This document shows, in pieces, positions 4,527 through 18,529 of a stretch of 20,807 nucleotides of DNA. A program made the position numbers and the translations under genes. A model generated the notes under the pieces. The model saw only the letters and a program-made list of their open reading frames with translations, did no database searches and had not been told where the DNA came from. Positions within the stretch are counted from its first letter, which is position 1, and each line of letters begins with the position of its first letter. The stretch comes from a virus, in IMG/VR virus record IMGVR_UViG_3300030061_003638, positions 4,972 through 25,778 of that record. One strand, given 5' to 3'.

Positions 4527-5219
4527 ATGGTTAAGAAAGAGAAAACACAACAACAAGTATTAACTTTTGAGGCTATTAGACCCTTTGGCCCTACTATTGT
4601 TAAAGGAAAGTTACCTAAATATCTTATTGATTTAATGGATAATAAATCAACAGAGATGTTAGAAGATGAAAAACTTGCTAAAGAATTTGATCATTCAGGT
4701 TCTCTTGCAGGTAATGTTAAACAAGAAGTTAGGTTTCCTCAGAAGTGGATGAGCACAGAAGAGTTTTTGCCAATGGTAAATTTAATGGGTGAAATGGTTA
4801 AACAATATATTTCTATTCCTCCAGCTAATGAAACTATTACACCTGAGTATGTAGGTAAAATGGTCATTGAATCTATGTGGGTCGTGAGCCAATGGGCAGG
4901 AGACTTTAATCCTTTTCATATACACGAGGGACAACTATCAGGAGTTTTTTATTTACGAGTGCCTCCTAGTCTTCCAGAAGAATATGCAAAAGAAGATCAT
5001 TACCCAACTGTAGGAGATATAGTTTGGTTTGATGGTCGTGCCTCTACTTTTAGTGGTCATAAATTTCAACACTCTCCAGAAGTAGGTGACATATTTTTAT
5101 TTCCAAATTGGTTAGCACATGGTGTCTATCCTTTTAGAACACAAAATGAAGAAAGACGATCCGTATCGTTTAATCTTCATTTAATTAAAAAAGAAGAAGA
5201 AAAACAATTATTAAAATAA
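4527..5219 (+). CDS. Fe(II)/2-oxoglutarate oxygenase, 2OG-FeII_Oxy_5-like
   Basis: 230 aa. The double-stranded beta-helix core is readable: the metal region is FNPFHIHEGQLSGVFYL with H131 and H133 (E134 follows), and the distal part is GDIFLFPNWLAHGVYPF with H198. Arg 210/211 in RRSVSFN is the expected 2-oxoglutarate carboxylate anchor. The NPxHxHxG..SGVFYL and FPxWLxH pattern matches the putative oxygenase family PF13759, common in cyanophages and other marine phages. Such enzymes couple 2OG decarboxylation to hydroxylation of a substrate; the substrate here is unknown. AAAGG at 4517-4521 sits 5 nt before the ATG. It is the first gene of the rightward cassette, directly abutting the next. 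The first ~110 residues are a variable helical domain. Confidence 0.85.
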   Translation: MVKKEKTQQQVLTFEAIRPFGPTIVKGKLPKYLIDLMDNKSTEMLEDEKLAKEFDHSGSLAGNVKQEVRFPQKWMSTEEFLPMVNLMGEMVKQYISIPPANETITPEYVGKMVIESMWVVSQWAGDFNPFHIHEGQLSGVFYLRVPPSLPEEYAKEDHYPTVGDIVWFDGRASTFSGHKFQHSPEVGDIFLFPNWLAHGVYPFRTQNEERRSVSFNLHLIKKEEEKQLLK

Positions 5220-5495
5220 ATGATTAACATAAACAAAACTCCTATGGTTCGTATAACATGGCTTGATGCCCGTGATATGGAAACTGGGTGGTTACCTGCT
5301 AAGGATATTGTTAATGCACCGTTAGCCGTGTGCCAAGAAGTAGGATGGATGGTTACTAATACAGATAAGAAAGTTGTTATTATGCGTTCATGGTGCACAG
5401 ATAAAGATGATAACCACGGTGGCGGTGCTATTGCTATACCTAAAGGATGGGTAACTAAAATAGAATATTTAACAATTAGCTATGCTACTCAGTAA
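5220..5495 (+). CDS. Small conserved phage protein, function unknown
   Basis: 91 aa, starting MININKTPMVRITWLDARDM. It reads as a compact beta-rich domain: VRITWLDARDMETGW, then PLAVCQEVGWMVTNTDKKVVIMRSW, an acidic/Gly loop (DKDDNHGGG) and IPKGWVTKIEYL. Small proteins of this W-D-A...VGW...IPKG layout recur in marine phages near structural genes; no function is known to me. The start codon follows the upstream stop with no spacer, and the end overlaps the next gene by 14 bp, so it is co-translated with the oxygenases. Two Cys (39, 59) are present but no metal site is evident. Confidence 0.8.
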   Translation: MININKTPMVRITWLDARDMETGWLPAKDIVNAPLAVCQEVGWMVTNTDKKVVIMRSWCTDKDDNHGGGAIAIPKGWVTKIEYLTISYATQ

Positions 5496-6000
5496 AAAAC
5501 AAATTAAAGATATACAACAAAATAAAGTAACTTTTATTCGAAACTTTACTACTCTTAATAAAGTATATGATTTTAATTATATTTCTGTTGTAGCTGATGA
5601 ATATGTAGGCGATGAAAATGGTATACAAATTTATTCACGAGGGGATCATTCATTTGAAAAAGTATGGGGAGTTAAACATTTACATAATGCTGATTATGAT
5701 TTGTTTTCTTATTATGATTTTTTAAAAAAAATGTTTATTTTTAATGAAGATTCTCGAAGCGGTGTAGATTTATTTTTTTCTTTTGCTACATGTGTAGGAC
5801 CTCCGCACATAGATGAAGAATGTATATTTCTTTTAGGTTTAAAAGGAAGCACTATTTATAAAGATTATTTAAATCGCAAGGATTACATTGTAGAAAAAGG
5901 TGACTTGTTATTTATTCCAGGGGGAATTAGACATAAAGCTATTGCTTGTTCTCCTCGCATTATTGCTTCAATAGGTTTTTTTGGTGACAGAAAAAAATAA
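5482..6000 (+). CDS. Compact JmjC/cupin-type 2OG oxygenase (ROX-like)
   Basis: 172 aa. The core is GPPHIDEECIFLLGLKGS, then YIVEKGDLLFIPGGIRHKAI and IIASIGFF. The candidate iron triad is H109-x-D111 and H151. K121 is positioned like the 2OG-binding lysine of JmjC enzymes. The H-x-D...G.K...KGDLLFIPGG..H order resembles the ribosomal oxygenase/JmjC_2 group (RoxA/YcfD, NO66, MINA53; PF08007), which hydroxylate ribosomal proteins. This protein is much shorter than those and lacks their dimerisation and winged-helix parts, so its substrate may differ. The ATG at 5482 lies inside the preceding gene and no strong ribosome site is visible, suggesting coupling. A metal-binding cupin that is not an oxygenase is the alternative. 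Confidence 0.7.
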   Translation: MLLSKKQIKDIQQNKVTFIRNFTTLNKVYDFNYISVVADEYVGDENGIQIYSRGDHSFEKVWGVKHLHNADYDLFSYYDFLKKMFIFNEDSRSGVDLFFSFATCVGPPHIDEECIFLLGLKGSTIYKDYLNRKDYIVEKGDLLFIPGGIRHKAIACSPRIIASIGFFGDRKK

Positions 6001-6562
6001 AAATATTTTATCAGTTGATTGTGATTTTGTTAAAGATTCTAGATCTTTAGTAAAATTAATTAAATTTGTTTTACAATATATAGATAAGATAGAAGATACC
6101 CACATTGTAATATCTCAAAAACATGTAGACATATATTATATTTTAGAACCTTTATTAAAAAATAAAAAAACTATAGATGTAGTTTCTATTGATCATCATC
6201 ATGATTTAACTTATCCAGACTTTCCTATTGAAAAAGGATTAGCTTCTAGCAATTGGCTTGGATATTATTTAATGAAACCTAATTTTATTGATAATGCATA
6301 TTGGTTATCTAATTATACATCAGATCCCAATGCAGGAGTTAAATGTGAAGATTGGATAACTATTACTAAAACATTTGAAGATATTGCTTTTGATTCATTT
6401 GATTATTTATTTATTTGTGAATCTCCTTCTTATGCTACCAATGAATTTTCTTTGTGTGCTTACAGAATATTAATAGAAATTATAACAAGATTAAAAAATA
6501 AAGATAAATTTTTTTTTATGAAACCTACTTTACTTAACCATAAATATGCCTTTATTAACTAG
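5984..6562 (+). CDS. UPF0489/arginase-fold-like protein
   Basis: About 192 aa. The start is GTG at 5984 (TTG at 5981 is also in frame); both lie inside the end of the upstream gene. The N-terminus reads NILSVDCDF, followed by IVISQKHVDIYYIL, then VVSIDHHHDLTY, and LASSNWLGYYL. The S-V-D-x-D start and the SIDHHHDL metal-like cluster resemble UPF0489 (PF12640) and, more remotely, arginase/deacetylase-type metal sites; I recognise the layout only. No characterised activity is known to me for phage members. It sits between an oxygenase and a sulfotransferase with overlaps on both sides, so it is probably part of the same tailoring pathway. No membrane segment or signal peptide. Confidence 0.55.
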   Translation: MTEKNKNILSVDCDFVKDSRSLVKLIKFVLQYIDKIEDTHIVISQKHVDIYYILEPLLKNKKTIDVVSIDHHHDLTYPDFPIEKGLASSNWLGYYLMKPNFIDNAYWLSNYTSDPNAGVKCEDWITITKTFEDIAFDSFDYLFICESPSYATNEFSLCAYRILIEIITRLKNKDKFFFMKPTLLNHKYAFIN

Positions 6563-7145
6563 TCCCAATAATAAAAAAGTTTTTTTTATTCACATACCTA
6601 GAACAGCAGGGCGTGCTTTGTCTGAATGGTTTGTGCAGAATAATTTTAATATTGAACATTATGATTGGAAACATTTAATTAATGATAATCCTGTAGGACA
6701 TCTTTGTTATCCTAATTACAATCTTCTTCCAGGAGTAAAAGATGTTTTTAAATTTGCAGTAGTGCGAGATCCTTTAGATAGATTTATTTCTATGTGTCGC
6801 ATTGTAGATTATGATTTTAGTAAAGTAAAAACTAAAGAAGATTTTAAAAATGTTATTGAATCTTTAAAAGAACAAACAAAAGGAATGAATTGGTTTACTC
6901 CTCAACATTATTTTATTGATAAAAAAACAGTATGGTGGAAACTAGAAGCTAAATTTGAAAGAGTATTTGTAGAGTGGTTAGCTCTTCCTTCATATGGAAA
7001 TGTTAAGTTAGAAGGAAAGATAGGGGATTATCCTAAAGAAGATTATGATAGTAAGCCTCTTCCTTTACTTTCTATGGAAGTAAAAAATTTAGTTAAAGAA
7101 TATTATAAAGAAGATTATGAAAGGTTTAATTATGCAATACAATAA
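6546..7145 (+). CDS. PAPS-dependent sulfotransferase family protein
   Basis: 199 aa. The 5'-phosphosulfate-binding loop is clear at residues 14-22 (FFIHIPRTAG) and the 3'-phosphate-binding segment at 69-82 (KFAVVRDPLDRFIS). These are the two hallmark motifs of Golgi-type carbohydrate sulfotransferases and their bacterial/phage relatives (Sulfotransfer_2, PF03567-like), which move sulfate from PAPS to a hydroxyl group. It is shorter than cellular enzymes (usually ~300 aa) but holds both cofactor motifs, so the core looks intact. A hydroxyl made by a neighbouring oxygenase or a sugar added by the glycosyltransferase is an attractive acceptor, but that is inference. It overlaps its upstream neighbour by 17 bp and the next gene by 14 bp. 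No transmembrane anchor: cytoplasmic. Confidence 0.85.
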   Translation: MPLLTSPNNKKVFFIHIPRTAGRALSEWFVQNNFNIEHYDWKHLINDNPVGHLCYPNYNLLPGVKDVFKFAVVRDPLDRFISMCRIVDYDFSKVKTKEDFKNVIESLKEQTKGMNWFTPQHYFIDKKTVWWKLEAKFERVFVEWLALPSYGNVKLEGKIGDYPKEDYDSKPLPLLSMEVKNLVKEYYKEDYERFNYAIQ

Positions 7146-7659
7146 AGCTACTAGATTTGTACAATATGTAGATAATTTTTTAGATGAAAAAACTTTAAAA
7201 TCTCTTCAAGATAATTTTTTACAATTAGAGTATACTCCACGGGTAAATGAGGATGGATTGTATGGAAATAGACATCGTTTCAACACACAAAAAATGAAAA
7301 AAGATCCTTTATTAGATCGTATAAAAGAATTTTTTTTTCCTTATTATGATTTAGAACCCACAGAAGTTGCAGCACACCTAAGACATAATAGCACAAAACC
7401 TATGGTACATACAGATCATAAAACTGATTGTAATTTTTTATTGTTTGTTAAAGGTGAACCTTTATTAAATAATGGTACAGGTTTTTTTACTGACACTGGT
7501 CAACTTTCTTCTCATGTAGGGTTTGTAGAAAACAGAGCTATATTTTTTAATGGCGCTAAAATAGCTCACACAGATCTTCAGTCTTTTGGTGATAGCTCCC
7601 CTCGATATACATTAAATATTTTTTATAAAAAAGCTCAACCTAAAGCTGCGGGGTTTTAA
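7132..7659 (+). CDS. 2OG-Fe(II) oxygenase, HxD type, paralogue of 16718 gene
   Basis: 175 aa from the ATG at 7132. I prefer this to the in-frame ATG at 7117 because AAAGG at 7120-7124 is 7 nt upstream and the protein then begins MQYNKATRFVQYVDNFLDE. The iron site is MVHTDHKT (H93, D95) and IAHTDLQ (H146); the 2OG anchor is R158 in SPRYTLNIFY. NNGTGFFT and VGFVENRAIFFN are shared almost word for word with the protein at 16718-17251, as are the opening (Y)VDNF and EYTPRVNE/EFTPPPNE, so the two are paralogues. Family-level function is hydroxylation of an unknown substrate. The stop overlaps the next ATG by one base (TAATG). Confidence 0.85.
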   Translation: MQYNKATRFVQYVDNFLDEKTLKSLQDNFLQLEYTPRVNEDGLYGNRHRFNTQKMKKDPLLDRIKEFFFPYYDLEPTEVAAHLRHNSTKPMVHTDHKTDCNFLLFVKGEPLLNNGTGFFTDTGQLSSHVGFVENRAIFFNGAKIAHTDLQSFGDSSPRYTLNIFYKKAQPKAAGF

Positions 7660-8186
7660 TGAATAATTTATTAGACTATATAAAAGTTTACAGAAAAATT
7701 TTAGACAAAGAAACCTGTAATAAAATTATACAAGAAAAAGATTTAAAATTTTTTCCAGCTACTACTCAAGGAAGAGTAGTTTCTCATCGACAATGTTTAA
7801 TTAAAAAACTTAACCCTGAATTTGAATCAATAATTAAATTTAAAGTTATTGAAATAACTAATAGATACATGAAAGATTATCCTCATTTAATTACTGGGTT
7901 TGAAAATAAGGATACGGGTTATGATCATTTATTATATATGTCTTCTCATGAAGGAGAATATAAAGAACATGTTGATAATACTTTAAGTCATAAAAGAATA
8001 TTAAGTTGTTCTATTCTTTTAAATGATACTTATGAGGGAGGAGAGTTTTCTTTTTTTGATAACGAATATACTATTCCTTCTCAACAAGGAATGGCTATTG
8101 TTTTTCCTAGTAACTTTATGTTTCCCCATGCTGTAAAAAAAATTATTTCTGGTGATAGGCACGCCATTATAACTTGGATGTATTAA
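7659..8186 (+). CDS. 2OG-Fe(II) oxygenase, prolyl-4-hydroxylase-like
   Basis: 175 aa. The core reads GEYKEHVDNTLSHKRILSCS, then LNDTYEGGEFSFFD, then GMAIVFPSNFMFPHAVKKI and GDRHAIITWM. Iron ligands H104-x-D106 and H157 and the 2OG anchor R167 are all in place. The L.D.YEGGEF.F turn and FPS...PHAV segment are the signature of the P4H/PiuC group (2OG-FeII_Oxy_3, PF13640). These enzymes hydroxylate prolyl or other residues and some small molecules; the substrate here is unknown. The length matches a minimal catalytic domain, with a ~90-residue helical N-terminus. TAATG overlaps at both ends tie it tightly to the flanking oxygenase and glycosyltransferase genes. Confidence 0.88.
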   Translation: MNNLLDYIKVYRKILDKETCNKIIQEKDLKFFPATTQGRVVSHRQCLIKKLNPEFESIIKFKVIEITNRYMKDYPHLITGFENKDTGYDHLLYMSSHEGEYKEHVDNTLSHKRILSCSILLNDTYEGGEFSFFDNEYTIPSQQGMAIVFPSNFMFPHAVKKIISGDRHAIITWMY

Positions 8187-8971
8187 TGAATAATATTTTT
8201 GTAGGAACACCGTGTTATGGGGGAATGATTTCTGTAAATTATTTTGAAAGTTGTTTACGTTTAATGTCAGAATGTGCAGTTAATAATGTAGGATTACAGT
8301 TTGGTACAATTGGAAACGAGTCATTAGTAACAAGAGCTCGGAATACTTTAGTGCAATTATTTATGGATGATAAACAATACACTCATTTATTATTTATAGA
8401 TGCTGATATAGGTTTTAATGAAAAATCTGTAATGCGTATGTTAGATTTAGATCAAGAAGTAGTTACGGGAGTTTATCCAAGAAAGACTATTGACTGGACA
8501 AAAGTTATAAGAAAAGTCAAAGAAAACCCTAATATAAAAGAAAATGAATTGTTAGCTTCTTCTTTACAATATAATCTTAATGTAAAAAATCCTGACCATG
8601 TAGAAGTTAAAAAGGGGTTTATAGAAGTATTAGATGGGGCTACAGGATTTATGTTGATTAAAAGATCTGTTTTTGAAAAAATGGCAAAGGCTTATCCTAG
8701 ACTTAAATTTAAATCAGATCAGTCTTTAAATGAACCTCATGATAAAACATTTGATTATCACGATAATTCTAAATGGAATTATACATTTTTTGACACAATG
8801 ATAGAACCTAAAACTAAAAGATACTTGTCAGAAGACTATGCTTTCTGTAGACTGTGGCAAAAAATTGGTGGCACCGTATATGCTGACATTGTTAGTGGTC
8901 TGACACACTATGGGACTTATGCCTTTAAAGGCAATGTAGGTACTCAATTCTTGCCACCAGAGAAGAAATAA
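8186..8971 (+). CDS. GT-A glycosyltransferase-like protein (GT2-like)
   Basis: 261 aa from the ATG at 8186, which overlaps the upstream stop as TAATG; the in-frame ATG at 8174 would extend into the oxygenase gene for no gain. It begins IFVGTPCYGGMISVNYFES, then VTRARNTLVQLFM, then YTHLLFIDADIGF with D72-x-D74 as the DxD metal/nucleotide-sugar motif. LDGATGFMLIKRSVFE follows near residue 150, and the C-terminal LSEDYAFCRLW near 210 supplies the acidic ED pair expected for a catalytic base. This is the usual arrangement of GT-A enzymes found in phages. Donor and acceptor are unknown. It closes the first enzyme block and is followed after 16 bp by a structural gene, which suits modification of a virion protein or host envelope. 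Confidence 0.82.
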   Translation: MNNIFVGTPCYGGMISVNYFESCLRLMSECAVNNVGLQFGTIGNESLVTRARNTLVQLFMDDKQYTHLLFIDADIGFNEKSVMRMLDLDQEVVTGVYPRKTIDWTKVIRKVKENPNIKENELLASSLQYNLNVKNPDHVEVKKGFIEVLDGATGFMLIKRSVFEKMAKAYPRLKFKSDQSLNEPHDKTFDYHDNSKWNYTFFDTMIEPKTKRYLSEDYAFCRLWQKIGGTVYADIVSGLTHYGTYAFKGNVGTQFLPPEKK

Positions 8972-8987
8972 TTTAGTATGTGGCCTT

Positions 8988-10868
8988 ATGCAATTAACTG
9001 ATTTAAAATTTCAACCAGGTGTAGATAAACAAGATTCACCTTATGCTGCGGGAGATGATAGAAAATATGTTGATTCACAATTAGTACGTTTTCATTATGG
9101 GAAACCAGAACGTTGGAAAGGGTGGACTTATCTTCCTAATCCTAACGAAACTGTTATTGGTGTAGTTCGTGATACACATTCATGGGTTACATTAGATGGT
9201 AATAGATACCTTGCTATAGGTACAGATAGAAAATTATATATATTAGAGGGTAGTGCTCTTTATGATATTACCCCTATTCGTGAAACAGCTAGTCTATCAA
9301 ATCCTTTTACAACGGTAAGTGGTAGTCCAATTGTAACCGTAGCCGATGCTGCTCACGGAGCAGTCTTAGGTGACTTTGTTACTTTTGATGATGGTAGTGC
9401 TAATAATGTATTAGATGGAATAGAATTTAATAACGAATTTGAAATTACAGAAATAGTAGATACTGATAATTATAAGATTACTTATTCTTCAAATGCTTCA
9501 GGGGCAACAGCCGGGGGTGGTGGATCAGTTACAGCAACCTACCAAATTAACACGGGACCAGCTACATCAACATATGGATATGGTTGGGGTGTTTTAACTT
9601 GGGGACTAAGTACATGGGGAACAGCTCGTTCTTCTTCTGATGTAACTATCACTGCTCGTAATTGGTCTTTAGATAATTTTGGAGAAGATCTTGTTGCTAC
9701 TGTTTTAGATGGTGGTACTTATCAATGGGATAAAAGTAATGGAGTAAGTACAAGGGCCGTGAGCCTAGGTGTGACAGCACCTGTTGCTACTCGTTTTTCT
9801 TTAGTCTCTTCTGACACTCGACATTTATTTTTATTTGGAACATGCACTACGGTTACAGATGCAGCTACACAAGATGATTTATTTTTTAGATTTGCTGATC
9901 GTGAAAGTTTAACAGTGTTTGCACCTACAGCAGAAAATGAAGCAGGTTCGCTTCGTATTGCTGATGGTTCACGTATTATAGGCGCTGTTAGATCAACTGG
10001 TCAGATATTAGTTTGGACTGATCAATCGCTACATGGTATTCAATTTGTTGGGACACCATTTACATTTGGTCAACGACAACTTGGGGCTAACTGTGGATTG
10101 ATAGCACAGCATGCAGCTATTGATGTAAATGGAATGGCTTTTTGGATGGGTGATGATGCTTTTTATATGTATGATGGGGTTGTTAAAAAAATGCCATGTT
10201 CTGTTCAAGATTATGTTTATGACGATTTAAGTTATACTAATAAAAATGATATAGCTTGTGGGGTTAATCCTGAATTTAATGAAATACTTTGGTATTATCC
10301 TTCATCTAGTGCTACACAAATAGATAGAGTAGTTGTTTACAATTATTTAGAAGGTACTTGGTATACTTCAACATTAGGACGAACTAGTTATCTTGCTAAT
10401 TATACTTTTGAAAATCCTATTTCTTCTGAATACAATGCTTCTTTAGTGGCAAATGCTACAACAAGTACAGGGGTAAGTAATACACCGTTTGGTGTATCAG
10501 CAGGAGCTTCCTATTTATATAATCAAGAAACAGGTAATAATCAAGCTGATGGTTCGGCTATTAGTGCTTCTCTTACTACAGGATCAATTGAAATTGGTGA
10601 TGGTGATCAATTTATGTCAATTAGTAAATTTGTTCCAGACTTTACTTCTTTAGCTAATAATTTAACTGTTACCTTAACTTTAGAAGATTATCCTCAATCT
10701 ACAACTAGTCAAACAACAACAGGAACTGTAAGTAGCACAACAGACAAAATTAATATAAGAGGACGAGGAAGATCAGTAAAATTAAATTTTACAACTAATA
10801 CAGTAGATGATACTAACTGGAGACTTGGATCAATGAAACTACAACTTAGACCAGATGGAAGAAGATAA
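8988..10868 (+). CDS. Tail/DNA-stabilisation structural protein, P22 gp10-like
   Basis: 626 aa. The N-terminus (FQPGVDKQDSPYAAGD, then YVDSQLVRFHYGKPERWKGW) and the following RYLAIGTDRKLYIL...LYDITPIR are a recurrent pattern of a podoviral tail component related to packaged-DNA stabilisation protein gp10 of P22. Trp/Gly repeats near residues 195-213 (GWGVLTWGLSTWGTAR) belong to the same family. The rest is beta-rich with repeated blades, consistent with a beta-propeller or hub. It would sit in the neck/tail of the particle. It is larger than P22 gp10 (about 470 aa). No strong ribosome site is seen before the ATG at 8988. The stop overlaps the next ATG as TAATG. The family assignment is from memory of the pattern. 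Confidence 0.7.
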   Translation: MQLTDLKFQPGVDKQDSPYAAGDDRKYVDSQLVRFHYGKPERWKGWTYLPNPNETVIGVVRDTHSWVTLDGNRYLAIGTDRKLYILEGSALYDITPIRETASLSNPFTTVSGSPIVTVADAAHGAVLGDFVTFDDGSANNVLDGIEFNNEFEITEIVDTDNYKITYSSNASGATAGGGGSVTATYQINTGPATSTYGYGWGVLTWGLSTWGTARSSSDVTITARNWSLDNFGEDLVATVLDGGTYQWDKSNGVSTRAVSLGVTAPVATRFSLVSSDTRHLFLFGTCTTVTDAATQDDLFFRFADRESLTVFAPTAENEAGSLRIADGSRIIGAVRSTGQILVWTDQSLHGIQFVGTPFTFGQRQLGANCGLIAQHAAIDVNGMAFWMGDDAFYMYDGVVKKMPCSVQDYVYDDLSYTNKNDIACGVNPEFNEILWYYPSSSATQIDRVVVYNYLEGTWYTSTLGRTSYLANYTFENPISSEYNASLVANATTSTGVSNTPFGVSAGASYLYNQETGNNQADGSAISASLTTGSIEIGDGDQFMSISKFVPDFTSLANNLTVTLTLEDYPQSTTSQTTTGTVSSTTDKINIRGRGRSVKLNFTTNTVDDTNWRLGSMKLQLRPDGRR

Positions 10869-11035
10869 TGGCTAAAATAACAATTACACGATTACCAAAT
10901 GCTACACCAGATTATCAACCAAGTCAATTTGATCAAATGGTACGATTACTTGAACAACTTATTTTAAATTTAAACACATCATATTCTCAAGACATAGAAA
11001 ATAAATCTAGCGGAAGGAGTTGGTACTTTGGGTGA
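10868..11035 (+). CDS. Small 55-aa phage protein
   Basis: Short frame starting with the ATG that overlaps the stop of the 626-aa gene (TAATG) and ending TGA at 11033-11035, 8 bp into the next gene. The product starts MAKITITRLPNATPDYQPSQ, continues FDQMVRLLEQLILNLNTSYS and ends SSGRSWYFG. The middle is a predicted helix. It is too small to type, but conserved spacing and overlaps at both ends, and in-frame codon use like its neighbours, support a real gene. It is probably a minor virion or assembly factor transcribed with the tail gene. Confidence 0.7.
   Translation: MAKITITRLPNATPDYQPSQFDQMVRLLEQLILNLNTSYSQDIENKSSGRSWYFG
11014..11019 (+). promoter_or_regulatory. Ribosome binding site deciding a TTG start
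   Basis: AAGGAG ends 8 nt before the TTG at 11028. No ATG or GTG in that frame is available upstream before the preceding overlap, so this site selects TTG as the start of the 125-aa gene. Confidence 0.65.
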
Positions 11036-11405
11036 TACATTTAAAAATGCAGGAAAAGATCTTACAACAACAGATTTAACAACACTTTATACTGTTCCTA
11101 CAGCATCACCAGGTGTTACAGGAACATCACCTGTTTTTCCAACAACTGCTGTTATAAAATCTATTTTAGTTTGTAATGATCATGGAACTGCTACTACTCT
11201 TTTGGATGTAGTTTTTACTGATACTAGTGCTTCTGCTACAATTGCTTTATTTGAACAAAAAAGTGTAGCGGCAAAAACTACTGATGAATTATTAGATCAA
11301 CCTTTAGTATTAGAAGAAGGGGACATATTAAAAGTACAAGCTAATGCAGCTAATCAAGTACATGTAACTGCTAGTATATTAGAAATAACAAAAGGAGATT
11401 TGTAA
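11028..11405 (+). CDS. Small beta-rich virion-type protein
   Basis: 125 aa, TTG start supported by AAGGAG 8 nt upstream. It begins MGDTFKNAGKDLTTTDLTTL. It is Thr/Ala/Val rich with alternating hydrophobic strands (AVIKSILVCNDHG, LLDVVFTDTSAS, ATIALFEQKSVAA, LVLEEGDILKVQA, QVHVTASILEI), fitting a small jelly-roll or Ig-like sandwich. Similar small beta proteins in phages decorate heads or tails; this role is inferred from composition and from its place directly after two tail-region genes. The stop TAA at 11403-11405 abuts the beginning of the next, unusual reading frame. Confidence 0.75.
   Translation: MGDTFKNAGKDLTTTDLTTLYTVPTASPGVTGTSPVFPTTAVIKSILVCNDHGTATTLLDVVFTDTSASATIALFEQKSVAAKTTDELLDQPLVLEEGDILKVQANAANQVHVTASILEITKGDL
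11391..11397 (+). promoter_or_regulatory. Shine-Dalgarno before a non-canonical start
   Basis: AAAGGAG lies in the last codons of the upstream gene and ends 7 nt before ATC at 11405. The position is right for initiating the oxygenase frame there, although no ATG/GTG/TTG exists at that spot. Confidence 0.55.
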
Positions 11406-11995: not shown

Positions 11996-12246
11996 CTAAA
12001 ATTATAGAAGAAGCAAAAGTTTTAGGGGAAATTGATGCAGGTGATGGTCGTATGGTTCCTCATATTAGATGTAAATCTGAGACAACGATTATTAATACTC
12101 AAACAAGTCAAGAATATGATTCAGAAAATCATGCTAAATCTGATGTAGATGACCCTAATACAAGTACTAAAGAAGAACATATTCAAAGAAATGTAAAAAT
12201 ATTTGCTCCATCTTTAGCAGATATGATAGGTGCTAACGAAGACTAA
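11992..12246 (+). CDS. Small conserved phage protein, function unknown
   Basis: 84 aa, acidic. It reads EEAKVLGEIDAGDGRMVPHI, then TIINTQTSQEYDSENHAKSD, DVDDPNTSTKEEHIQRNVKI and a hydrophobic end (FAPSLADMIG). The NTQTGQ-like turn and VDDPNT...IxRxVxV pattern recur in small proteins of marine phages; function unknown to me. It has a strong ribosome site (AAAAGGAG 6-13 nt before the ATG). It overlaps the upstream stop (ATGA) and converges with the minus-strand gene so that the two stop codons share two bases. Confidence 0.8.
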   Translation: MTKIIEEAKVLGEIDAGDGRMVPHIRCKSETTIINTQTSQEYDSENHAKSDVDDPNTSTKEEHIQRNVKIFAPSLADMIGANED

Positions 12247-12458: not shown

Positions 12459-12508
12459 AATTTCTCCTGTGATTTAAATTTTTGGGTGAGATCTAATTTA
12501 ACCATATT

Positions 12509-12538
12509 TTGATTGAAAGCAACAGAACTTTTTAAAAT
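12509..12538 (+). promoter_or_regulatory. Candidate promoter of the second oxygenase operon
   Basis: The 131-bp divergent gap 12459-12589 must hold the promoter(s). TTGATT at 12509-12514 and TAAAAT at 12533-12538 are 18 bp apart (4/6 and 5/6 to sigma70 boxes), with about 50 nt to the ATG at 12590. A perfect TTGACA at 12546-12551 also occurs, but its only -10-like partner (TATGAA, 12564-12569, preceded by TGG) is 12 bp away. The first pair is preferred; both are weak in such A/T-rich DNA. Confidence 0.3.
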
Positions 12539-12589
12539 TGTTTTATTGACAAAGAATATATGGTATGAAAGGGGCAGAAATTAGAGAGA

Positions 12590-13168
12590 ATGAATATAGA
12601 TACTTTAGATAACCCAACTTATCATTTTTTTATAAAGAATTACGAGGAAAAGAATATTCCCTGTTTAATAAAAAATTATTCTTTAGACTGGCCTATTTTT
12701 AAAATGCCTGATTACTACATAGCTAAAAAATTAAATATAGGGAATTTTTACCAGTATTTAAAAAGAGATTGTAATTATCTTTTACCTGACAAAGAAGATG
12801 TTTTTTATATAAGAGATTATTTAATTGCTGATAGTGTTCTGCATAATTCTTATTCTATTCCCTCTTACTTTGCTGATGCTCCTTTTCAGCCTAATGAATG
12901 GAAATGGTTGTATTGGGGTCCTCCTTCTTCTTCCTCTAAAATACATACGGATACTACGGAGTCATCTGCATGGAATGTTGTTATATCAGGCAAAAAAATG
13001 TGGTGGTTTTGGTTTAATAATAAAACTTATTATTGCACTCAAAAAGAAAAAGAAATTATTTTTACTCCAGGCAACATAGAACATGCAGCTTGTAACATAA
13101 CTTCGTGTCTTTCTATTACTCATAATTATTTAAGAGATCATGAGAAAATTAAATGGGCTACACAATGA
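12590..13168 (+). CDS. JmjC/Cupin_8-type 2OG oxygenase
   Basis: 192 aa. WKWLYWGPPSSSSKIHTDTT, then SAWNVVISGKKMWWFW, then IIFTPGNIEHAACNI and LSITHNYL reproduce the FIH/JMJD-type Cupin_8 domain (PF13621). Iron ligands are H119-x-D121 and H165; K136 in SGKKMW matches the 2OG-binding lysine; N129 in WN is also typical. Known members hydroxylate Asn, Lys, Asp or Arg side chains of proteins, or tRNA; the substrate here is unknown. Only ~16 residues separate KKMWWFW from the last strand pair, shorter than in cellular members (full proteins ~250-350 aa), so it is a compact version. It is the first gene of the second operon; ATGA joins it to the next gene. A weak purine-rich ribosome site precedes the ATG. 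Confidence 0.82.
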   Translation: MNIDTLDNPTYHFFIKNYEEKNIPCLIKNYSLDWPIFKMPDYYIAKKLNIGNFYQYLKRDCNYLLPDKEDVFYIRDYLIADSVLHNSYSIPSYFADAPFQPNEWKWLYWGPPSSSSKIHTDTTESSAWNVVISGKKMWWFWFNNKTYYCTQKEKEIIFTPGNIEHAACNITSCLSITHNYLRDHEKIKWATQ

Positions 13169-13746
13169 CTTTTAAAATACATAATAATGTTTTAACAAAA
13201 GAAGAGCATGAAAAACTTGTAAGGTATATTACAAGTAGTGGGTTTCAATGGAGTTACAGTAATGCAACTTATGATGCAAGTAATGAAACCGATACACCAC
13301 AAATGGTCCGTTCATTAATGGAACGTGGCCACATAGAGGATTGGCCAGACGAACCTAGTATTTGGACTTCACAACATTTTTATCACAAATATTTTTGGCA
13401 AATACCTCATCTGCATGATATTTTAAAAAACTGTGGTTCAACAAGAGATTATTGGAGAGTTAAATGTAATTTACTTCAACCGTATTACAACGCACCAGAA
13501 CACCATCCTTATCATGTTGATGTTGATAACGATGGTTGGCAGCCACCCGGTGGCTTCACTAGTTATATTTACTATATAAATAATAGTAACGGTTGTACAT
13601 GGTTTGATAGTGGAGGAAAAATAGAACCGATGGCTAACACTTGTATTGAGTTTGATAGTTATGTTAAACATGCAAGTTCTAATCCAACTAACGGACCTCG
13701 TTACGTAATAAATTTTGTGACAGCAAATGAACAATTAAAAATATAA
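13165..13746 (+). CDS. 2OG-Fe(II) oxygenase, HVD type with Gly/Tyr-rich core
   Basis: 193 aa from the ATG at 13165, which overlaps the upstream TGA as ATGA; the in-frame ATG at 13153 would add only four residues. N-terminal MTFKIHNNVLTKEEHEKLV is the helical segment common to these enzymes. The core reads HHPYHVDVDNDGW (H117, D119), GGFTSYIYYINNSNGCTWF, then EFDSYVKHASS (H169) and NGPRYVINFV (R179 as 2OG anchor). The triad and its spacing fit the PF13640/P4H-like fold, but the central strands differ from the other oxygenases here, so it is a separate lineage. Substrate unknown. The next ATG comes 1 bp after its stop. Confidence 0.8.
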   Translation: MTFKIHNNVLTKEEHEKLVRYITSSGFQWSYSNATYDASNETDTPQMVRSLMERGHIEDWPDEPSIWTSQHFYHKYFWQIPHLHDILKNCGSTRDYWRVKCNLLQPYYNAPEHHPYHVDVDNDGWQPPGGFTSYIYYINNSNGCTWFDSGGKIEPMANTCIEFDSYVKHASSNPTNGPRYVINFVTANEQLKI

Positions 13747-13747
13747 A

Positions 13748-14314
13748 ATGACAGAGCTTTATACTTATAATAATACTTCAATCTCTCCATTAATTCATTT
13801 TATTAACTTACATTTTAAACATAAATTAATTGGTGTTGAGATTGGTGTAGGTCAAGGTTTATCAATGTTTGAAGTTTTAGAAAAATGTGAATTAGTAAAA
13901 ATGTATTATGGTATTGATTCTTATCTTCCATTTGAAGATCACATTACTTACGGAAAAGAAAAAATATATTATGATCAAAAAAGCCAAGACCTTAGTAAAA
14001 CAATGTTATATCATTATTTAAAACACAGTAAGGGAAAAGAAAAAATAAAGATAATTGAAAAAGAATCTCGTATTGCTGTGGAAGAATTTCCTAATGAATA
14101 CTTTGATTTTATTTTTTTAGATGCATTTCCTACCTATGAAAATGCTGTACAAGATTTTACTTTATGGTTTCCTAAATTAAAAGTTAAAGGATTATTTTGT
14201 GGTCACGACTTTAACAATAAAATTATTCAAGAAGCTTTGATTGATTTTTTAAAATTAATTAAATTAAATAAAAAATTAAGTATAGCTAATGACACATGGG
14301 CTTTTATTAAATGA
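13748..14314 (+). CDS. Class I SAM-dependent methyltransferase (Methyltransf_24-like)
   Basis: 188 aa. Motif I is GVEIGVGQGLS (29-39) for S-adenosylmethionine binding. The acidic end of strand 2 is YYGIDSY (D57), and the post-motif strand is FDFIFLDAFPTYENAVQDF (D125), followed by KVKGLFCGHDF. This order, with LDA.P.YE and GG.CGHDF, matches PF13578-type methyltransferases, which methylate small molecules or sugar precursors in many clusters and are frequent in phage and glycan loci. No target-recognition or DNA-binding domain is visible, so DNA methylation is not favoured. It overlaps the next gene by 4 bp (ATGA) and is embedded in a run of oxygenases, so methylation and oxidation may act on a common substrate. 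Confidence 0.82.
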   Translation: MTELYTYNNTSISPLIHFINLHFKHKLIGVEIGVGQGLSMFEVLEKCELVKMYYGIDSYLPFEDHITYGKEKIYYDQKSQDLSKTMLYHYLKHSKGKEKIKIIEKESRIAVEEFPNEYFDFIFLDAFPTYENAVQDFTLWFPKLKVKGLFCGHDFNNKIIQEALIDFLKLIKLNKKLSIANDTWAFIK

Positions 14315-14979
14315 AAATTAAATATTTTTATTTACACGATAGTATTCCAGATTCTTTACGTTTATCTTTTAATAAAGAAATACCTAACCAAGATAAAGGG
14401 TATCATCGTTGTTATGCACACAAGTGGGCAAACTTAAATAGATTTACTGTAAGCTGTCCCTATGATTTAAATTTTACTATTAACCCTATTGAGGGACAAG
14501 AAGAATATAGTATTACTTTTCATGATGTATACACTTCAAATTTATTTAAAGATGGGTTAATACAAGTAACATTTAGCGATGCAGTAATTCATCACAAACC
14601 TGTTTTTCAAATTCCTTTGAATGTAGTTTTTTATACTAAAGAAACTTGTTTTTTAGAAACAGGATCTCCTAATAATTTTCAACATAATTTAAAATTTATT
14701 AATGGTAAGTTTGACATATCATCTTGGGTTCGTCCTCTTAATATAGCATTTGAAATACAAAGTTATCATCAAAAGGTACATATAAAAAGAAATGAAATTA
14801 TTGGTGAATTAATTTTTCATACATCTAAAATTAATGAAAATATTATTTTAGAAGAAAACAAAAATCCTTCTTCTCAGCTATTAAATTTAAGTCAAGGAAA
14901 TTCTAAAGTATCAGGTTATATTAAAAATACTAAAACTTTAATTAATAAAGGAAAAAAATTATTACAAAAAATTATATGA
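14311..14979 (+). CDS. Divergent DUF6065-like protein
   Basis: 222 aa, beta-rich for its first ~175 residues and Lys/Asn-rich, helical at the end. No signal peptide or catalytic motif I can name. By eye it follows the order of the protein at 17840-18529: a Cys-Pro segment (SCPYDLNFTI near 48-57 vs VCIPFLDSL), a TCFLETGSPNN stretch (112-122 vs SCLFTHPMNR), NGKFDISSWVRPLNIAFEI (131-149 vs EGIVDTDTYLNTIHFPFIL) and VHIKRNEIIGELIFHT (156-171 vs FLFKKGDPMVQVIPFK). I infer distant paralogy; similarity is low and needs a profile comparison. ATGA overlaps tie it to the methyltransferase before and the oxygenase after it. Confidence 0.6.
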   Translation: MKIKYFYLHDSIPDSLRLSFNKEIPNQDKGYHRCYAHKWANLNRFTVSCPYDLNFTINPIEGQEEYSITFHDVYTSNLFKDGLIQVTFSDAVIHHKPVFQIPLNVVFYTKETCFLETGSPNNFQHNLKFINGKFDISSWVRPLNIAFEIQSYHQKVHIKRNEIIGELIFHTSKINENIILEENKNPSSQLLNLSQGNSKVSGYIKNTKTLINKGKKLLQKII

Positions 14980-15581
14980 ATATAAATATTGAAACTCATT
15001 CGTTGTTTACTGAAAAGGTATGGACTTTTAAAATACCTAATCACGATACATGGAAAAACCATATAAATAATATTGTTAAAGTAGAATCAAATAAATCTAT
15101 ACACCAACATTCTACTTCTCCTGAAGAAGAGTGTAATGTTAAAGCTTCTCGCACAGGATGGTGGTCACATTTTCAATATTCTATTTTACGAAACCTAACT
15201 GACTTTATTGGAAATAACTGTTTAAATGCGATTGCTTCAACAGAAAAATTTGACATGCCTAAATTTACTGTAACTAATTGTTGGATTAATTGGTACGATA
15301 AAACTCAATATGCTGAAGTGCACAATCATCATTTTCATCCGCTTTCTGTTGTTTACTTTGTAGATCTTCCAGATGAAAATTCTAATTTTTTATTTCATAA
15401 TTATTATGGAAGTGCTTTAAAAAAAGACGGTGACAAATTATTAAATGTAGAAGAAGGAACGATTATAATTTTTAATGGATCTCTTCCTCATTCAGTTTCT
15501 CCTAATCTTTCTGATAAATTAAGAGTTACTTTTGCTGCTAATTATGAACCTGTTTTTGAAGAAGAAAGAAAAAAATATTAA
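14976..15581 (+). CDS. 2OG-Fe(II) oxygenase, Oxy_5-like, HNH motif
   Basis: 201 aa. N-terminal ETHSLFTEKVWTFKIPNHD corresponds to the family's usual LFxTPV(x)xxxxP opening, and TGWWSHFQYSI (60-70) to its conserved GWxS segment. The metal region is YAEVHNHHFHPLSVVYFVDLP (H116, H118); EEGTIIIFNGSLPHSVSPN gives H172; R183 in DKLRVTFAANY is the 2OG anchor. It belongs with the proteins at 4527, 11405 and 17248, all of which show H-x-H where most 2OG enzymes have H-x-D/E. The distal strand carries FNGSLPH instead of FPSWLxH. Overlaps: ATGA at its start, TAATG at its end. Confidence 0.82.
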   Translation: MNINIETHSLFTEKVWTFKIPNHDTWKNHINNIVKVESNKSIHQHSTSPEEECNVKASRTGWWSHFQYSILRNLTDFIGNNCLNAIASTEKFDMPKFTVTNCWINWYDKTQYAEVHNHHFHPLSVVYFVDLPDENSNFLFHNYYGSALKKDGDKLLNVEEGTIIIFNGSLPHSVSPNLSDKLRVTFAANYEPVFEEERKKY

Positions 15582-16099
15582 TGATACATAAATCTAAATT
15601 AATTATAAATAACAAAAAAGACTTTGTTAAAGAAATTCATACGGCAGCAGCTATTTATCGTGAAGCTTTTCCAGAAAAAGATTTAACCTGGGGATATAAT
15701 CTTTATAATACATTTGGTATTACTTCCCCTTCTAAATTATTTTATGAACTTTTTAAAGAACTACGAACAGTAATTTTAAATTACACTGATTCTAAATACA
15801 TATGGATGCAATCATGGATTAATTTTCATCAACAAGATGAAGTGTTACATTGGCATAGCCATGAGTGGGATTTTCATGGGTACATAACTATTGAACCTCA
15901 TCAGACAAGAACAGTATTTGAAAACTTTGAAATTGTTAATGAGGTAGGAAATATTTATATAGGTCCTGGTGATCTTTATCACAAGGTTATTGTAGATAAG
16001 AAATTTAATACTCCTCGTATAACTCTTGGTTTTGATTGTCACACAAAACCTTTAACACAACCTAACAATACAATTGGTTTAATACCTATTATACGATAA
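15581..16099 (+). CDS. Putative 2OG-Fe(II) oxygenase, HWHSH motif
   Basis: 172 aa. WMQSWINFHQQDEVLHWHSH (H90, H92, H94), then FHGYITIEPH, EVGNIYIGPGDLYHKV (H134) and NTPRITLGFDC (R146) outline a double-stranded beta-helix with His metal ligands and an Arg 2OG anchor. The first motif is H-x-H-x-H-E, close to but not the same as the HNH/HTH motif of the Oxy_5-like group, and the N-terminal 70 residues are unrelated to it. Which His residues bind iron cannot be decided by eye. A cupin-like metal enzyme that does not use 2OG is the main alternative. TAATG overlaps at both ends. Confidence 0.72.
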   Translation: MIHKSKLIINNKKDFVKEIHTAAAIYREAFPEKDLTWGYNLYNTFGITSPSKLFYELFKELRTVILNYTDSKYIWMQSWINFHQQDEVLHWHSHEWDFHGYITIEPHQTRTVFENFEIVNEVGNIYIGPGDLYHKVIVDKKFNTPRITLGFDCHTKPLTQPNNTIGLIPIIR

Positions 16100-16725
16100 T
16101 GGAATATTATTCTTTTTCAAAAAACATTATAGCCGCTAATAATTTTTTACCCCCAAATATAATAGACAAGCTGTATATAGATTTTTTAAATTTAAGAAAT
16201 TATTTTGATATATCTGAATGGCAAAATAAAGAAGGAAATAAAAAAAAAGAATTTTATTCTCCTCATTGTGGGGGCTTTGATTTTTGGATCACAGATAAAA
16301 ATGTAAAAGATTTTGAAAACACTACTATTTTACATTTAAAATCATGGTTTTTGCATCAAGGATTATTAGCCTATATTCAAGATAATTTTTCTAACTCTGT
16401 ATTTGATTTATTAAATAGAAAATTAAAGTTTTCAATTCATGTTGTTTCCTATAATAAAGAAGGATATTATAATTGGCATCAAGATATTAATCCAAAGAAT
16501 ATATTTACGATGAATTTAATTTTACAAAAACCCAGTAATTTAATAGGTGGAGAATTTTTATTTAAAGATAATAATAAAATAATTAAAACTAATAACACTC
16601 ATAATTTTTTTTCTTGTTTTCCTTCTTTTATATGGCATGCGGTTAAACCTTTGCAAGCAGATAAAGAAGTATCTTTTTTAGAACAACGATTTAGTATTCA
16701 ATTTTGGTGGAGATTAGATGAATAG
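16099..16725 (+). CDS. 2OG-Fe(II) oxygenase, P4H-like
   Basis: 208 aa. N-terminal helical part, then KFSIHVVSYNKEGYYNWHQD (H127, D129), TMNLILQKPSNLIGGEFLF, FFSCFPSFIWHAVKPL (H180) and EQRFSIQFWW (R197). The full HxD...H...R set plus the L....L.GGEF.F turn matches the PF13640/PiuC-type oxygenases; the same turn appears in the 7659-8186 protein (YEGGEFSFF), placing both in one broad subgroup, although the N-termini do not resemble each other. A ~30-residue insert lies between the GGEF strand and the distal His. Substrate unknown. The start overlaps the upstream stop (TAATG) and the stop lies 8 bp inside the next gene. Confidence 0.86.
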   Translation: MEYYSFSKNIIAANNFLPPNIIDKLYIDFLNLRNYFDISEWQNKEGNKKKEFYSPHCGGFDFWITDKNVKDFENTTILHLKSWFLHQGLLAYIQDNFSNSVFDLLNRKLKFSIHVVSYNKEGYYNWHQDINPKNIFTMNLILQKPSNLIGGEFLFKDNNKIIKTNNTHNFFSCFPSFIWHAVKPLQADKEVSFLEQRFSIQFWWRLDE

Positions 16726-17251
16726 TATTTTTGTACAAGATAATTTTTTTGAAGATGATATTTTTCAAAAAATAAAATTAGAAATACCTACAGTAGAATT
16801 TACTCCTCCTCCTAATGAAACTAGAGTTTATCAATCTTCTTATTGGTTTGATCATAAATTACCAGTAATGTGTGAAGTTCAAAAATTAATATATAAAAAT
16901 ATAAAACTTTATTTTAATATGGAAGTAGATGTAAATGAAGTTACAGACGTAGATTGTATGTATACTATGTCTAATGCTAAAGATCATCCACGCCCACATA
17001 CTGACGGTTCAGCAACTCATCAATGTCTTATCTATATAAAAGGAGATTCACACTTGGCTAATGGCACAGGTTTTTATACTCGTGATCCAGAAGATATATT
17101 AAAATTTCATTTAAACTTAAATGTAGGATTTAAAGAAAACAGAGCTGTATTTTTTTCTTCAGATAATTGGCACTCACCTATGCAATGGTCAGGTGAAAGT
17201 TCATGGAGATATAGTATTGCTAATTTTATGACAATGAAAGGAAAAAAATGA
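16718..17251 (+). CDS. 2OG-Fe(II) oxygenase, paralogue of 7132 gene
   Basis: 177 aa. HPRPHTDGSATHQCLIYIKG holds H94 and D96; NWHSPMQW holds H152; SWRYSIANF holds R164. The opening FVQDNFFEDD, EFTPPPNE, the NGTGFYT segment and NVGFKENRAVFFSS are matched by VDNFLDEK, EYTPRVNE, NGTGFFT and HVGFVENRAIFFN of the protein at 7132-7659. A gap-free match of the distinctive GTGF[FY]T and VGF.ENRA[IV]FF blocks is strong evidence of common origin, with enough divergence to suggest different substrates. It has an 8-bp overlap with the gene before and an ATGA overlap with the gene after. Confidence 0.86.
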   Translation: MNSIFVQDNFFEDDIFQKIKLEIPTVEFTPPPNETRVYQSSYWFDHKLPVMCEVQKLIYKNIKLYFNMEVDVNEVTDVDCMYTMSNAKDHPRPHTDGSATHQCLIYIKGDSHLANGTGFYTRDPEDILKFHLNLNVGFKENRAVFFSSDNWHSPMQWSGESSWRYSIANFMTMKGKK

Positions 17252-17847
17252 AAAAGAAAATTATAGTAGAAGGACGTTTCATTAGTAAATTTACTGTTCC
17301 TAAAAAATATATTAAAGATTTAAATAATCATTATGAAAAAGCAAAAACTCATTTATCAAGTTATGGTCATAGATTAGCAGGAAGACTAGATTCAGAATTA
17401 AATATTATGGCATTAATTGAAAAAACACAGGCTTTTAAATATTTTGTAAAATGTATGAATGATCATCTTAAAACAAGTGAGGATTTTAATGTATGTAAAC
17501 CGGGTCCACATCATTTAGATATTAATGGTTGTTGGATTAATGATATGAAAGAAGGAGAATATAATCCTCCTCATACACATCATGACGGAACAGGATGGTC
17601 TACTGTTTTATTTTTAAAAGTTCCTGAGTTTATAGATGATACAAAAGATCCTCATAAATTTAAAGATGGTCAATTGTGTTTTATAATGAATCAAAATATA
17701 TGTCATTATGTTACTCCTAAAGTAGGAGATTTTTATATATTTAGAGCAGATCATCAACATTGTGTAATGCCTTTTAAAACAAAAAAATCTGGGGCTATAA
17801 GACGTTCTATGTCTTTTAATTTTATTGAAGTGAAAAAAGATGTTTGA
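17248..17847 (+). CDS. 2OG-Fe(II) oxygenase, Oxy_5-like, HTHHD motif
   Basis: 199 aa. INGCWINDMKEGEYNPPHTH (H109, H111, then H112 and D113), STVLFLKVPEFIDDT, GQLCFIM, TPKVGDFYIFRADHQHCVMP (H171) and RRSMSFNFIEV (R185/186). The N.W.N....GEYNPPHTH and GDFYIF...H.V.PF...RRSMSFN layout is the textbook pattern of phage PF13759-type proteins and closely parallels the protein at 4527-5219 (GDIFLFPNWLAHGVYPF, RRSVSFN). The N-terminus is short and Lys-rich. It overlaps the upstream gene as ATGA and the downstream gene by 8 bp. Substrate unknown. Confidence 0.86.
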   Translation: MKKKIIVEGRFISKFTVPKKYIKDLNNHYEKAKTHLSSYGHRLAGRLDSELNIMALIEKTQAFKYFVKCMNDHLKTSEDFNVCKPGPHHLDINGCWINDMKEGEYNPPHTHHDGTGWSTVLFLKVPEFIDDTKDPHKFKDGQLCFIMNQNICHYVTPKVGDFYIFRADHQHCVMPFKTKKSGAIRRSMSFNFIEVKKDV

Positions 17848-18529
17848 GAAACAAATAAAGTTTATTGCTACCGATAAAGAAATGTTAGACATATGGCCTC
17901 ATCCACGTCCTGCTTCTCGTTTTATCCCTGAAGAATATAAAAAATTAGAAAGATTTACTGAAGGTAATATACATGAACCAACTGTTAAAGTATGCATACC
18001 TTTTCTTGATTCTTTAACGGCTGGATATATTATTCCATTTGATCAAGATTATTTAGTTGATCCAGTAGAAAATGATTTTAGTGTAACCCCTGCCAACAAA
18101 GAACAAAATAATTTTGGTTACCATAAAAAAGCTCAGTTACCATTAGAATGGCAAAAAAATTCTGGAGAAAAAGCAGGAAAATTTATTAACAAATGGCTTA
18201 TTCAAACACCACCTGGTTATAGTTGTTTATTTACACATCCTATGAATAGATATGGAGAAACTCGATTTAAAATTATTGAAGGTATTGTAGATACAGATAC
18301 TTATCTTAATACAATTCATTTTCCTTTTATTTTAAATAAAAGAGATAAACAATTTTTATTTAAAAAAGGCGACCCTATGGTTCAAGTTATTCCATTTAAA
18401 CGAGAAGCATGGAAAATGTGGTCTGGTTTTTATTATGAAAAAAAACACAGTCAAACTCTTCGTTTACTTTTAAGTGAGTGGAGCGATAGATATAAAAAGT
18501 TTTTTTGGCATAAAAAAAGTTTTAAGTAA
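17840..18529 (+). CDS. DUF6065-like phage protein
   Basis: 229 aa. It contains DIWPHPRPASRFIPEEYKKL, then VKVCIPFLDSLTAGYIIPFD, NNFGYHKKAQLP, NKWLIQTPPGYSCLFTHPMN, GIVDTDTYLNTIHFPF and KGDPMVQVIPFKREAWKM. I recognise this run of motifs as a family widespread in marine phages (DUF6065 in my memory); no biochemical function is known to me. Many conserved Pro, His and Asp suggest an enzyme or binding protein rather than a structural one. The family's usual length is close to this. It is the last gene of the operon, overlaps the oxygenase before it by 8 bp, and ends 4 bp short of the convergent tail-fibre block, with no obvious terminator hairpin between. Confidence 0.72.
   Translation: MFEKQIKFIATDKEMLDIWPHPRPASRFIPEEYKKLERFTEGNIHEPTVKVCIPFLDSLTAGYIIPFDQDYLVDPVENDFSVTPANKEQNNFGYHKKAQLPLEWQKNSGEKAGKFINKWLIQTPPGYSCLFTHPMNRYGETRFKIIEGIVDTDTYLNTIHFPFILNKRDKQFLFKKGDPMVQVIPFKREAWKMWSGFYYEKKHSQTLRLLLSEWSDRYKKFFWHKKSFK

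Follow-up and report, generated by a model that had tools for sequence, protein, structure and literature searches.

Gene content of the locus

The window analysed here is a 20,807-nucleotide stretch of viral DNA that spans bases 4972-25778 of an IMG/VR virus record 25.8 kb long (IMGVR_UViG_3300030061_003638). Its subject is a gene island between positions 4527 and 18529, in which twelve genes are predicted, from profiles and models, to encode double-stranded beta-helix proteins of the Fe(II)-oxygenase type, in four groups. The block holds 22 named plus-strand genes and one small minus-strand gene (12243-12458), and minus-strand structural genes lie on both sides, with ejection-protein-type genes to the left and tail collar/fibre genes to the right. 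An initial annotation, made by a model from the letters alone, had placed twelve Fe(II)/2-oxoglutarate (2OG) oxygenase genes here. Pfam, PHROG and PDB profiles, linked iterated profiles, and two AlphaFold models, given below with their predicted local distance difference test (pLDDT) scores, confirmed all twelve in the same places. Both its count and its subgroup scheme were right, with the profiles giving four groups (A-D). All twelve reading frames are open at the following coordinates, and each gene is named by the position at which it begins.

4527..5219, plus strand: oxygenase group A, core copy A1, beside the ejection-protein genes (PF13759 67 bits; 74-95% identity at the same place in relatives)
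5482..6000, plus strand: oxygenase group D, JmjC_2/ROX-like (PF08007 28.5 bits; AlphaFold pLDDT 90; Foldseek YcfD/NO66 8e-8)
7132..7659, plus strand: oxygenase group B, PHD-like (phrog_274 1.6e-11; 30% identity to 16718, E 4e-18)
7659..8186, plus strand: oxygenase group C, P4H-like (PF13640 53.2 bits; group profile matches prolyl 4-hydroxylases, 1e-17)
11405..11995, plus strand: oxygenase group A, core copy A2 (PF13759 94.8 bits; ATC start overlapping the upstream TAA)
12590..13168, plus strand: oxygenase group D, JmjC, JMJD6-like (PF02373 35.3 bits; profile matches JMJD6, 6e-10)
13165..13746, plus strand: oxygenase group B (phrog_274 3.5e-28; AlphaFold model matches PHD2, 1.7e-7)
14976..15581, plus strand: oxygenase group A (PF13759 42.5 bits)
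15581..16099, plus strand: oxygenase group A, divergent (phrog_2696 3e-47; phrog_81 4e-7; PF13759 12.5 bits, below the cut-off of 27)
16099..16725, plus strand: oxygenase group C (PF13640 35.6 bits)
16718..17251, plus strand: oxygenase group B, paralogue of 7132 (phrog_1644 2e-11; phrog_274 3e-8; PF13640 just 17.6 bits)
17248..17847, plus strand: oxygenase group A (PF13759 48 bits)

Families, fold and metal site

Eight of the twelve exceed the curated Pfam cut-off (27 bits for PF13759, 27 for PF13640, 22 for JmjC_2 and 24 for JmjC); 7132, 13165, 15581 and 16718 fall below it and were placed by other evidence, and the assignment as a whole also draws on metal-site residues and on the ratio of nonsynonymous to synonymous divergence (dN/dS). 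Group A (PF13759) comprises five genes, 4527, 11405, 14976 and 17248 together with 15581, which joins by linkage: iterating its profile leads to the same set of ~240 relatives that the PF13759 members find. Three genes form group B (phrog_274/phrog_1644, PHD/OGFOD1-like: 7132, 13165 and 16718), two form group C (PF13640, P4H-like: 7659 and 16099), and two form group D (JmjC/ROX-like: 5482 and 12590). Iterated profiles built from relatives alone merge the members within A, within B and within C, and comparing profile with profile connects B with C (98%, 5e-14) and A with C (97%, 6e-11). It gave no link between the two group D genes, because their alignments are thin.

Solved structures point the same way. 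The group A profile matches the solved PF13759 members 3bvc/2rg4 (2e-21), and the joint group B profile aligns along its whole length with OGFOD1 (4nhx, 7e-7) and EGLN1/PHD2 (5lb6, 2e-6). The AlphaFold model of 13165 (pLDDT 83) matches PHD2 in Foldseek at 1.7e-7, with a template-modelling score (TM) of about 0.58. For 5482, the JmjC Pfam match spans only 37 residues, but the model aligns with YcfD along most of the protein. The initial annotation would have been refuted by a lack of the fold and the metal triad; wherever this could be tried, the refutation failed, with 13165 leading to PHD2 and 5482 to YcfD/NO66.

The initial annotation had argued from a His-x-(Asp/His) motif followed by a distal His and an Arg or Lys. 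Its residues are indeed conserved across relatives, but the bare motif is not diagnostic: it is found in 268 of 270 relatives called oxygenases and also in 47 of 199 (24%) other phage proteins of 150-260 amino acids, and we consequently rejected a motif search as evidence for an oxygenase. The motif also occurs in three other genes of the block, 5981, 6546 and 8174, which were rejected as oxygenases because their profiles say otherwise.

In group A, H92, H94 and H134 are invariant in 47 divergent sequences, with R146 in 45 and Lys in 2, and the same H-x-H..H..R is aligned in the two solved bacterial members, 3bvc and 2rg4. Across 41 group B sequences, H117 and H169 are invariant and D119 and R179 near-invariant. 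Group C has invariant H127 and H180, and position 129 is Asp in 24 of 27 sequences and Glu in 3. For 5482 and 14 relatives, H109, D111, H151 and R159 are invariant, and 12590 carries HTD..H. The two-His-one-carboxylate pattern (HxD/E..H) is present in groups B and C and in 5482, as well as in 12590. Group A has H-x-H, not the H-x-D of the usual site, so that one has to postulate either three His ligands or a different carboxylate; the second His of the H-x-H may bind the metal. If both residues of this invariant H-x-H, which in PF13759 replaces H-x-D/E, are metal ligands, the iron would sit in a three-His site, which would be unusual for a 2OG oxygenase.

Companion, backbone and flanking genes

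The remaining features of the window are as follows.

3..4386, minus strand: left flank, ejection/internal virion-type genes (2405-3328 matches phrog_4287, 'DNA ejection protein', 2e-9)
5220..5495, plus strand: conserved 91-amino-acid backbone protein (phrog_25889; 69 loci)
5981..6562, plus strand: orphan, moving as a cassette together with 5482 and 6546 (trio elsewhere in the islands of contigs L014 and L011; no Pfam or PHROG match)
6546..7145, plus strand: sulfotransferase (PF03567 29.3 bits; phrog_3347 1e-22)
8174..8971, plus strand: putative GT-A glycosyltransferase, backbone (phrog_1574 2e-43; start probably the ATG at 8186)
8988..10868, plus strand: virion structural protein, island backbone (phrog_3287 2e-77; tblastn to pelagiphages and DSL-LC04)
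11028..11405, plus strand: conserved 125-amino-acid backbone protein (phrog_1276; 81 loci)
11992..12246, plus strand: conserved 84-amino-acid backbone protein (66 loci)
13748..14314, plus strand: S-adenosylmethionine-dependent methyltransferase (PF13578 47.2 bits)
14311..14979, plus strand: phrog_17480 protein, linked to the methyltransferase (phrog_17480 1e-14)
17840..18529, plus strand: DUF6065 protein, usual distal backbone gene (PF19541 28.5 bits; phrog_7084 2e-41; 37 loci)
18534..20806, minus strand: right flank, small protein and tail fibre/collar genes (PF07484 Collar 79 bits; phrog_9116 and other tail families)

The profile of 8174 matches the archaeal virus protein A197 (PDB 2c0n, 5e-5) and has an invariant D-x-D. 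The structural gene at 8988..10868 lies inside the oxygenase island, and its phrog_3287 counterpart in phage DSL-LC04 is named a stabilization protein. A likeness of the DUF6065 protein to dUTPases, suspected by eye, found no support in a structure profile search. As most of the plus-strand genes abut or overlap by 1-20 bases, long co-transcribed units across them are likely. A promoter and terminator scan of the window was uninformative, with 100 promoter-like sites against 86.9 +/- 10.2 in shuffles, and a nucleotide-level search of known phages returned nothing useful. A short unresolved gap, translated as XXXX, lies just left of the window (L008, around record position 4959-5032), and the source record is therefore a scaffold.

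The island in related phages

Scans of viral contigs yielded over 100 loci, and the relatives share a conserved backbone with two core oxygenases, A1 and A2. The recurring order is A1, the 91-amino-acid protein, often a B gene, the putative glycosyltransferase, the structural protein, the 125-amino-acid protein, A2, the 84-amino-acid protein, a variable stretch and usually DUF6065. Ten relatives' islands could be bounded at both ends; their recognised oxygenases number 3-12 (median 7), where the minimum of 3 is an artefact of the boundary rule, as a profile map of L053 shows at least six. With twelve oxygenases in 13.3 kb, the window has the highest density seen here, shared with contig L014, which also has twelve in a different gene order. 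In G001, a relative of 64 kb, the oxygenases found cluster within 46.5-57.7 kb, with a single exception.

Codon comparison with L009, L010, L014, L011, L015 and L021 gave dN/dS of about 0.03-0.3 in nearly all cases, oxygenases included. By this measure the oxygenase genes are under purifying selection and are working genes rather than debris. Synonymous divergence (dS) differs between parts of the locus. Against L014, dS is about 0.7-1.0 in the backbone and 0.6-1.25 in the tail genes, whereas most bank genes have 0.14-0.51. The structural protein shares only 47% identity with its counterpart in L011, but 12590 is 98%, 13748 94% and 15581 94% identical, and L010 has the same contrast between bank and backbone genes. 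The trio 5482-5981-6546 occupies different places in the window and in L014, and gene content differs gene by gene between close relatives. Because bank genes are far closer than backbone and tail genes, and because the trio has been relocated, the sequences indicate that accessory oxygenases have moved horizontally between diverged phages, independently of tail genes in the cases compared. Our check of whether bank content tracks the tail fibres covered a few contigs.

Three side observations come from other contigs. At L016, the end of record G003 (59.7 kb), lies a 41-residue piece of the JmjC gene 12590, 83% identical, which is either a transfer or an assembly chimera; G003 otherwise had no matches to the group or island profiles and was left out of the analysis. 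Next to oxygenases on relatives' contigs are a tryptophan halogenase, carbamoyltransferase domains and more sulfotransferases (L116:5699-7168; L109:4536-5504; L119:14145-14672; L121:2947-3774). Island proteins of ~280 amino acids (L092:14675-15562 and six relatives) have no Pfam or PHROG match and, by eye, resemble GT9-type glycosyltransferases.

The start of the second core oxygenase is unusual. Gene 11405 has no ATG, GTG or TTG start; it begins at an ATC that overlaps the upstream stop (TAATC), behind AAAGGAGA (window 11394-11420). Among 43 distinct start junctions in relatives, ATC occurs in 32 and ATT in 5 (37 of 43 together), and ATG in 2. Codon-position bias indicates that the first 72 codons of 11405 are coding, and in the window an inverted repeat spans the start. 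This clade-wide AUC/AUU initiation codon may set a low or termination-coupled level of translation.

By sequence, the phage is assigned to the relatives of the HTVC023P-type pelagiphages (viruses of the ocean bacterium SAR11). Membership of that type has been defined by a PolA at least 45% similar to that of cultured members (PMC9599517). The window record is without PolA, and the assignment goes through G001, whose structural protein is 81% identical to that of the window and whose PolA is 53%, and TerL 61-62%, identical to those of HTVC023P/HTVC027P.

Possible function of the island

Our sequence analysis best supports a late enzyme bank that modifies proteins. In its specific form we advance this only tentatively: a late-gene 'tailoring island' between the ejection and tail-fibre modules, whose oxygenases would most likely modify virion proteins and whose transferases would cap the products. 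Twelve putative Fe(II)-dependent oxygenases, with a sulfotransferase, a methyltransferase and a putative glycosyltransferase, surround one virion structural gene. These genes would be expressed late, together with the structural gene, and their products would act in the cytoplasm. Each oxygenase would hydroxylate a residue of a different protein, most likely a virion (tail or ejection) protein, and some of the hydroxyls so created would afterwards be capped by the transferases. In this way the phage could change the surface chemistry or stability of its virion as hosts vary.

Groups B, C and D point to protein targets, because their closest relatives of solved structure are mostly protein hydroxylases (PHD2, OGFOD1, prolyl/lysyl hydroxylases, JMJD6, YcfD/NO66), and lysyl hydroxylase/glycosyltransferases are among the weaker group C matches. 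Potential capping enzymes in relatives' islands include sulfotransferase, carbamoyltransferase and tryptophan halogenase. Virion proteins are the preferred target because of the likely transcription block shared with the structural gene and because of tail-gene adjacency in unrelated phages. To describe the latter, we used group A gene neighbourhoods in nine phage records, eight T4-like cyanobacterial myoviruses and one pelagimyovirus, chosen from the best matches and not at random. The group A gene lies beside tail-fibre or tail-fibre-assembly genes in six of the nine (S-RIM44, S-SZBM1, P-RSM6, P-TIM40, S-RIM32 and P-HM1), four of which also have one or two tryptophan halogenases there; in P-SSM2, S-H9-2 and Mosig it is not tail-fibre-adjacent.

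Several points weigh against this interpretation. Tail-gene proximity can be a general trait of variable phage islands, and protein-hydroxylase relatives are over-represented in the PDB. The five group A genes, with their H-x-H, have less certain chemistry. Judging by the dS contrast with L014, bank genes moved without the neighbouring tail genes and so are not tied to one tail sequence. This makes it less likely that each tail variant has its own enzyme, and it keeps host proteins and host surface glycans in play as targets. The initial annotation had offered a bank of protein hydroxylases as one of two options; the nearest solved relatives of groups B-D agree with it, subject to the same bias of the PDB.

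The island might instead modify host surface glycans or lipids during infection, by hydroxylation, sulfation, methylation, carbamoylation or glycosylation, for example to block superinfection or re-adsorption. We regard this as unlikely, though a serious candidate, since a sulfotransferase and a putative glycosyltransferase are present here, carbamoyltransferases and more sulfotransferases occur in relatives' islands, and variable content would suit adaptation to host surface types. Dioxygenases that act on lipid A or Kdo (3-deoxy-D-manno-oct-2-ulosonic acid) are known in LpxO and KdoO. However, none of the twelve resembles either in the searches made, the oxygenases outnumber the glycan enzymes, and the block showed no genes of a sugar-nucleotide pathway.

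Rather doubtful, in our judgement, is that the enzymes hydroxylate host proteins (the ribosome, EF-Tu, RNA polymerase or defence proteins) for takeover or disarming, with the variability reflecting an arms race. Horizontal turnover decoupled from tail genes would fit, as would the targets of the nearest solved relatives, which are ribosomal proteins, EF-Tu or regulators (OGFOD1, YcfD, NO66 and a P. putida P4H bound to EF-Tu). That likeness is at the superfamily level, however, and the genes sit among late structural genes, not early takeover genes.

Auxiliary metabolism, in which the oxygenases drain 2OG or oxidise small molecules and so reprogram host nitrogen, iron or carbon metabolism, has been proposed for cyanophages (reviewed in PMC9602691), and infection by HTVC027P raises host iron-transport genes (PMC12753301). 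For this island it seems improbable: twelve divergent, conserved enzymes would be a poor means of lowering one metabolite, there were no TauD-like matches, and the location and companion transferases argue otherwise. The other option of the initial annotation, a single multi-step oxidation pathway yielding one compound, is very improbable, for while head-to-tail overlapping genes with methyl- and sulfotransferases resemble a biosynthetic operon, no scaffold-making enzyme was recognised, bounded islands hold 3-12 oxygenases in differing combinations, and a bank is favoured over a fixed pathway because content changes one gene at a time among close relatives and cassettes move between diverged phages.

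DNA-base modification of the TET/JBP/AlkB type was also considered and rejected; no family of this kind scored above cut-off, and replication genes do not adjoin the island.

Returning to the tailoring of virion proteins, a bolder version, which we consider unlikely as it stands, is that unrelated marine phages share a swappable bank that adds hydroxyl, halogen, sulfate, methyl, carbamoyl or sugar groups to the proteins of their own virions and so diversifies the chemistry of receptor contact beyond what the genetic code offers; in that case, one virion may be the target of a dozen enzymes.

Names of related families

Some PHROG names appear to be wrong. The PHD-like group B relatives (7132, 13165 and 16718) fall into phrog_274, named 'DNA endonuclease V', and phrog_1644, named 'minor coat protein'. 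Judging from the modelled fold of 13165, at least these phrog_274 members are oxygenases, and the 'minor coat protein' name of phrog_1644 is perhaps wrong. A partner gene in relatives (for example, L007:10295-10912) belongs to phrog_2954, named 'ferrochelatase' (HTVC023P gp67). None of 14 members matches the Pfam ferrochelatase model even at E 1, and a PDB profile search returned no ferrochelatase. The family has an invariant H-x-D and a distal His, and a weak match to the group B profile (E 1.6e-4, probability 50%) is suggestive. This pelagiphage and cyanophage 'ferrochelatase' is probably another oxygenase family. A pairing of ferrochelatase with oxygenase has been reported in pelagiphages (PMC9599517), as has seasonal enrichment of ferrochelatases (PMC11561400); if the misnaming is right, both would partly be one superfamily counted twice. 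Wrong names of this kind would conceal the size of the enzyme bank, including in cyanomyoviruses.

Comparison with known systems

It has been published that a single marine phage can carry many 2OG oxygenases, that these occur in variable islands and that they resemble EGLN prolyl hydroxylases (PMC9602691, PMC3909814, PMC12774648). What appears new is how densely the genes are packed side by side, the arrangement as a backbone plus a bank, the transfer of cassettes uncoupled from backbone and tail genes, the repeated position next to tail-fibre and halogenase genes, and the probable misnaming. Scattered 'auxiliary metabolic genes' would become a single system that has a defined location and can be tested: an enzyme bank that is late, adjacent to tail genes and exchanged horizontally.

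The prolyl, lysyl and JmjC protein hydroxylases (PHD2, OGFOD1, P4H, JMJD6 and YcfD) share the fold and metal motif with groups B, C and D, and for groups B and C the profile matches are full-length. Compared with these, the island proteins are 10-20% identical and consist of a single small domain.

The initial annotation was wrong to call cyanophage 2OG oxygenases isolated. By our own profiles, P-SSM2 has 25, P-RSM6 19 and S-SCSM1 22, a count calibrated by the 24 reported in S-SCSM1 (PMC9602691). These cyanomyovirus sets hold the same families A-E, often beside tail-fibre genes and with halogenases. Their totals are larger, but in genomes of 190-250 kb, and the densest 14 kb among the five cyanomyoviruses examined has 8. 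Fe(II)-dependent oxygenases are also among the commonest genes of hypervariable marine phage islands, alongside tail fibres; that metaviromic survey covers eight genes across many phages and no dense bank (PMC3909814).

The closest comparison is with the HTVC023P-type pelagiphages, which as a group have eight non-orthologous 2OG oxygenases, often near each other but 'not adjacent' (PMC9599517). Judging by PolA and TerL of G001, the isolates HTVC023P and HTVC027P probably belong to the same lineage; they have the same island position near tail genes and overlapping families. Their islands hold 3-4 oxygenase-type genes, whereas that of the window has twelve, mostly head to tail, with JmjC types and several PHD-like members among them.

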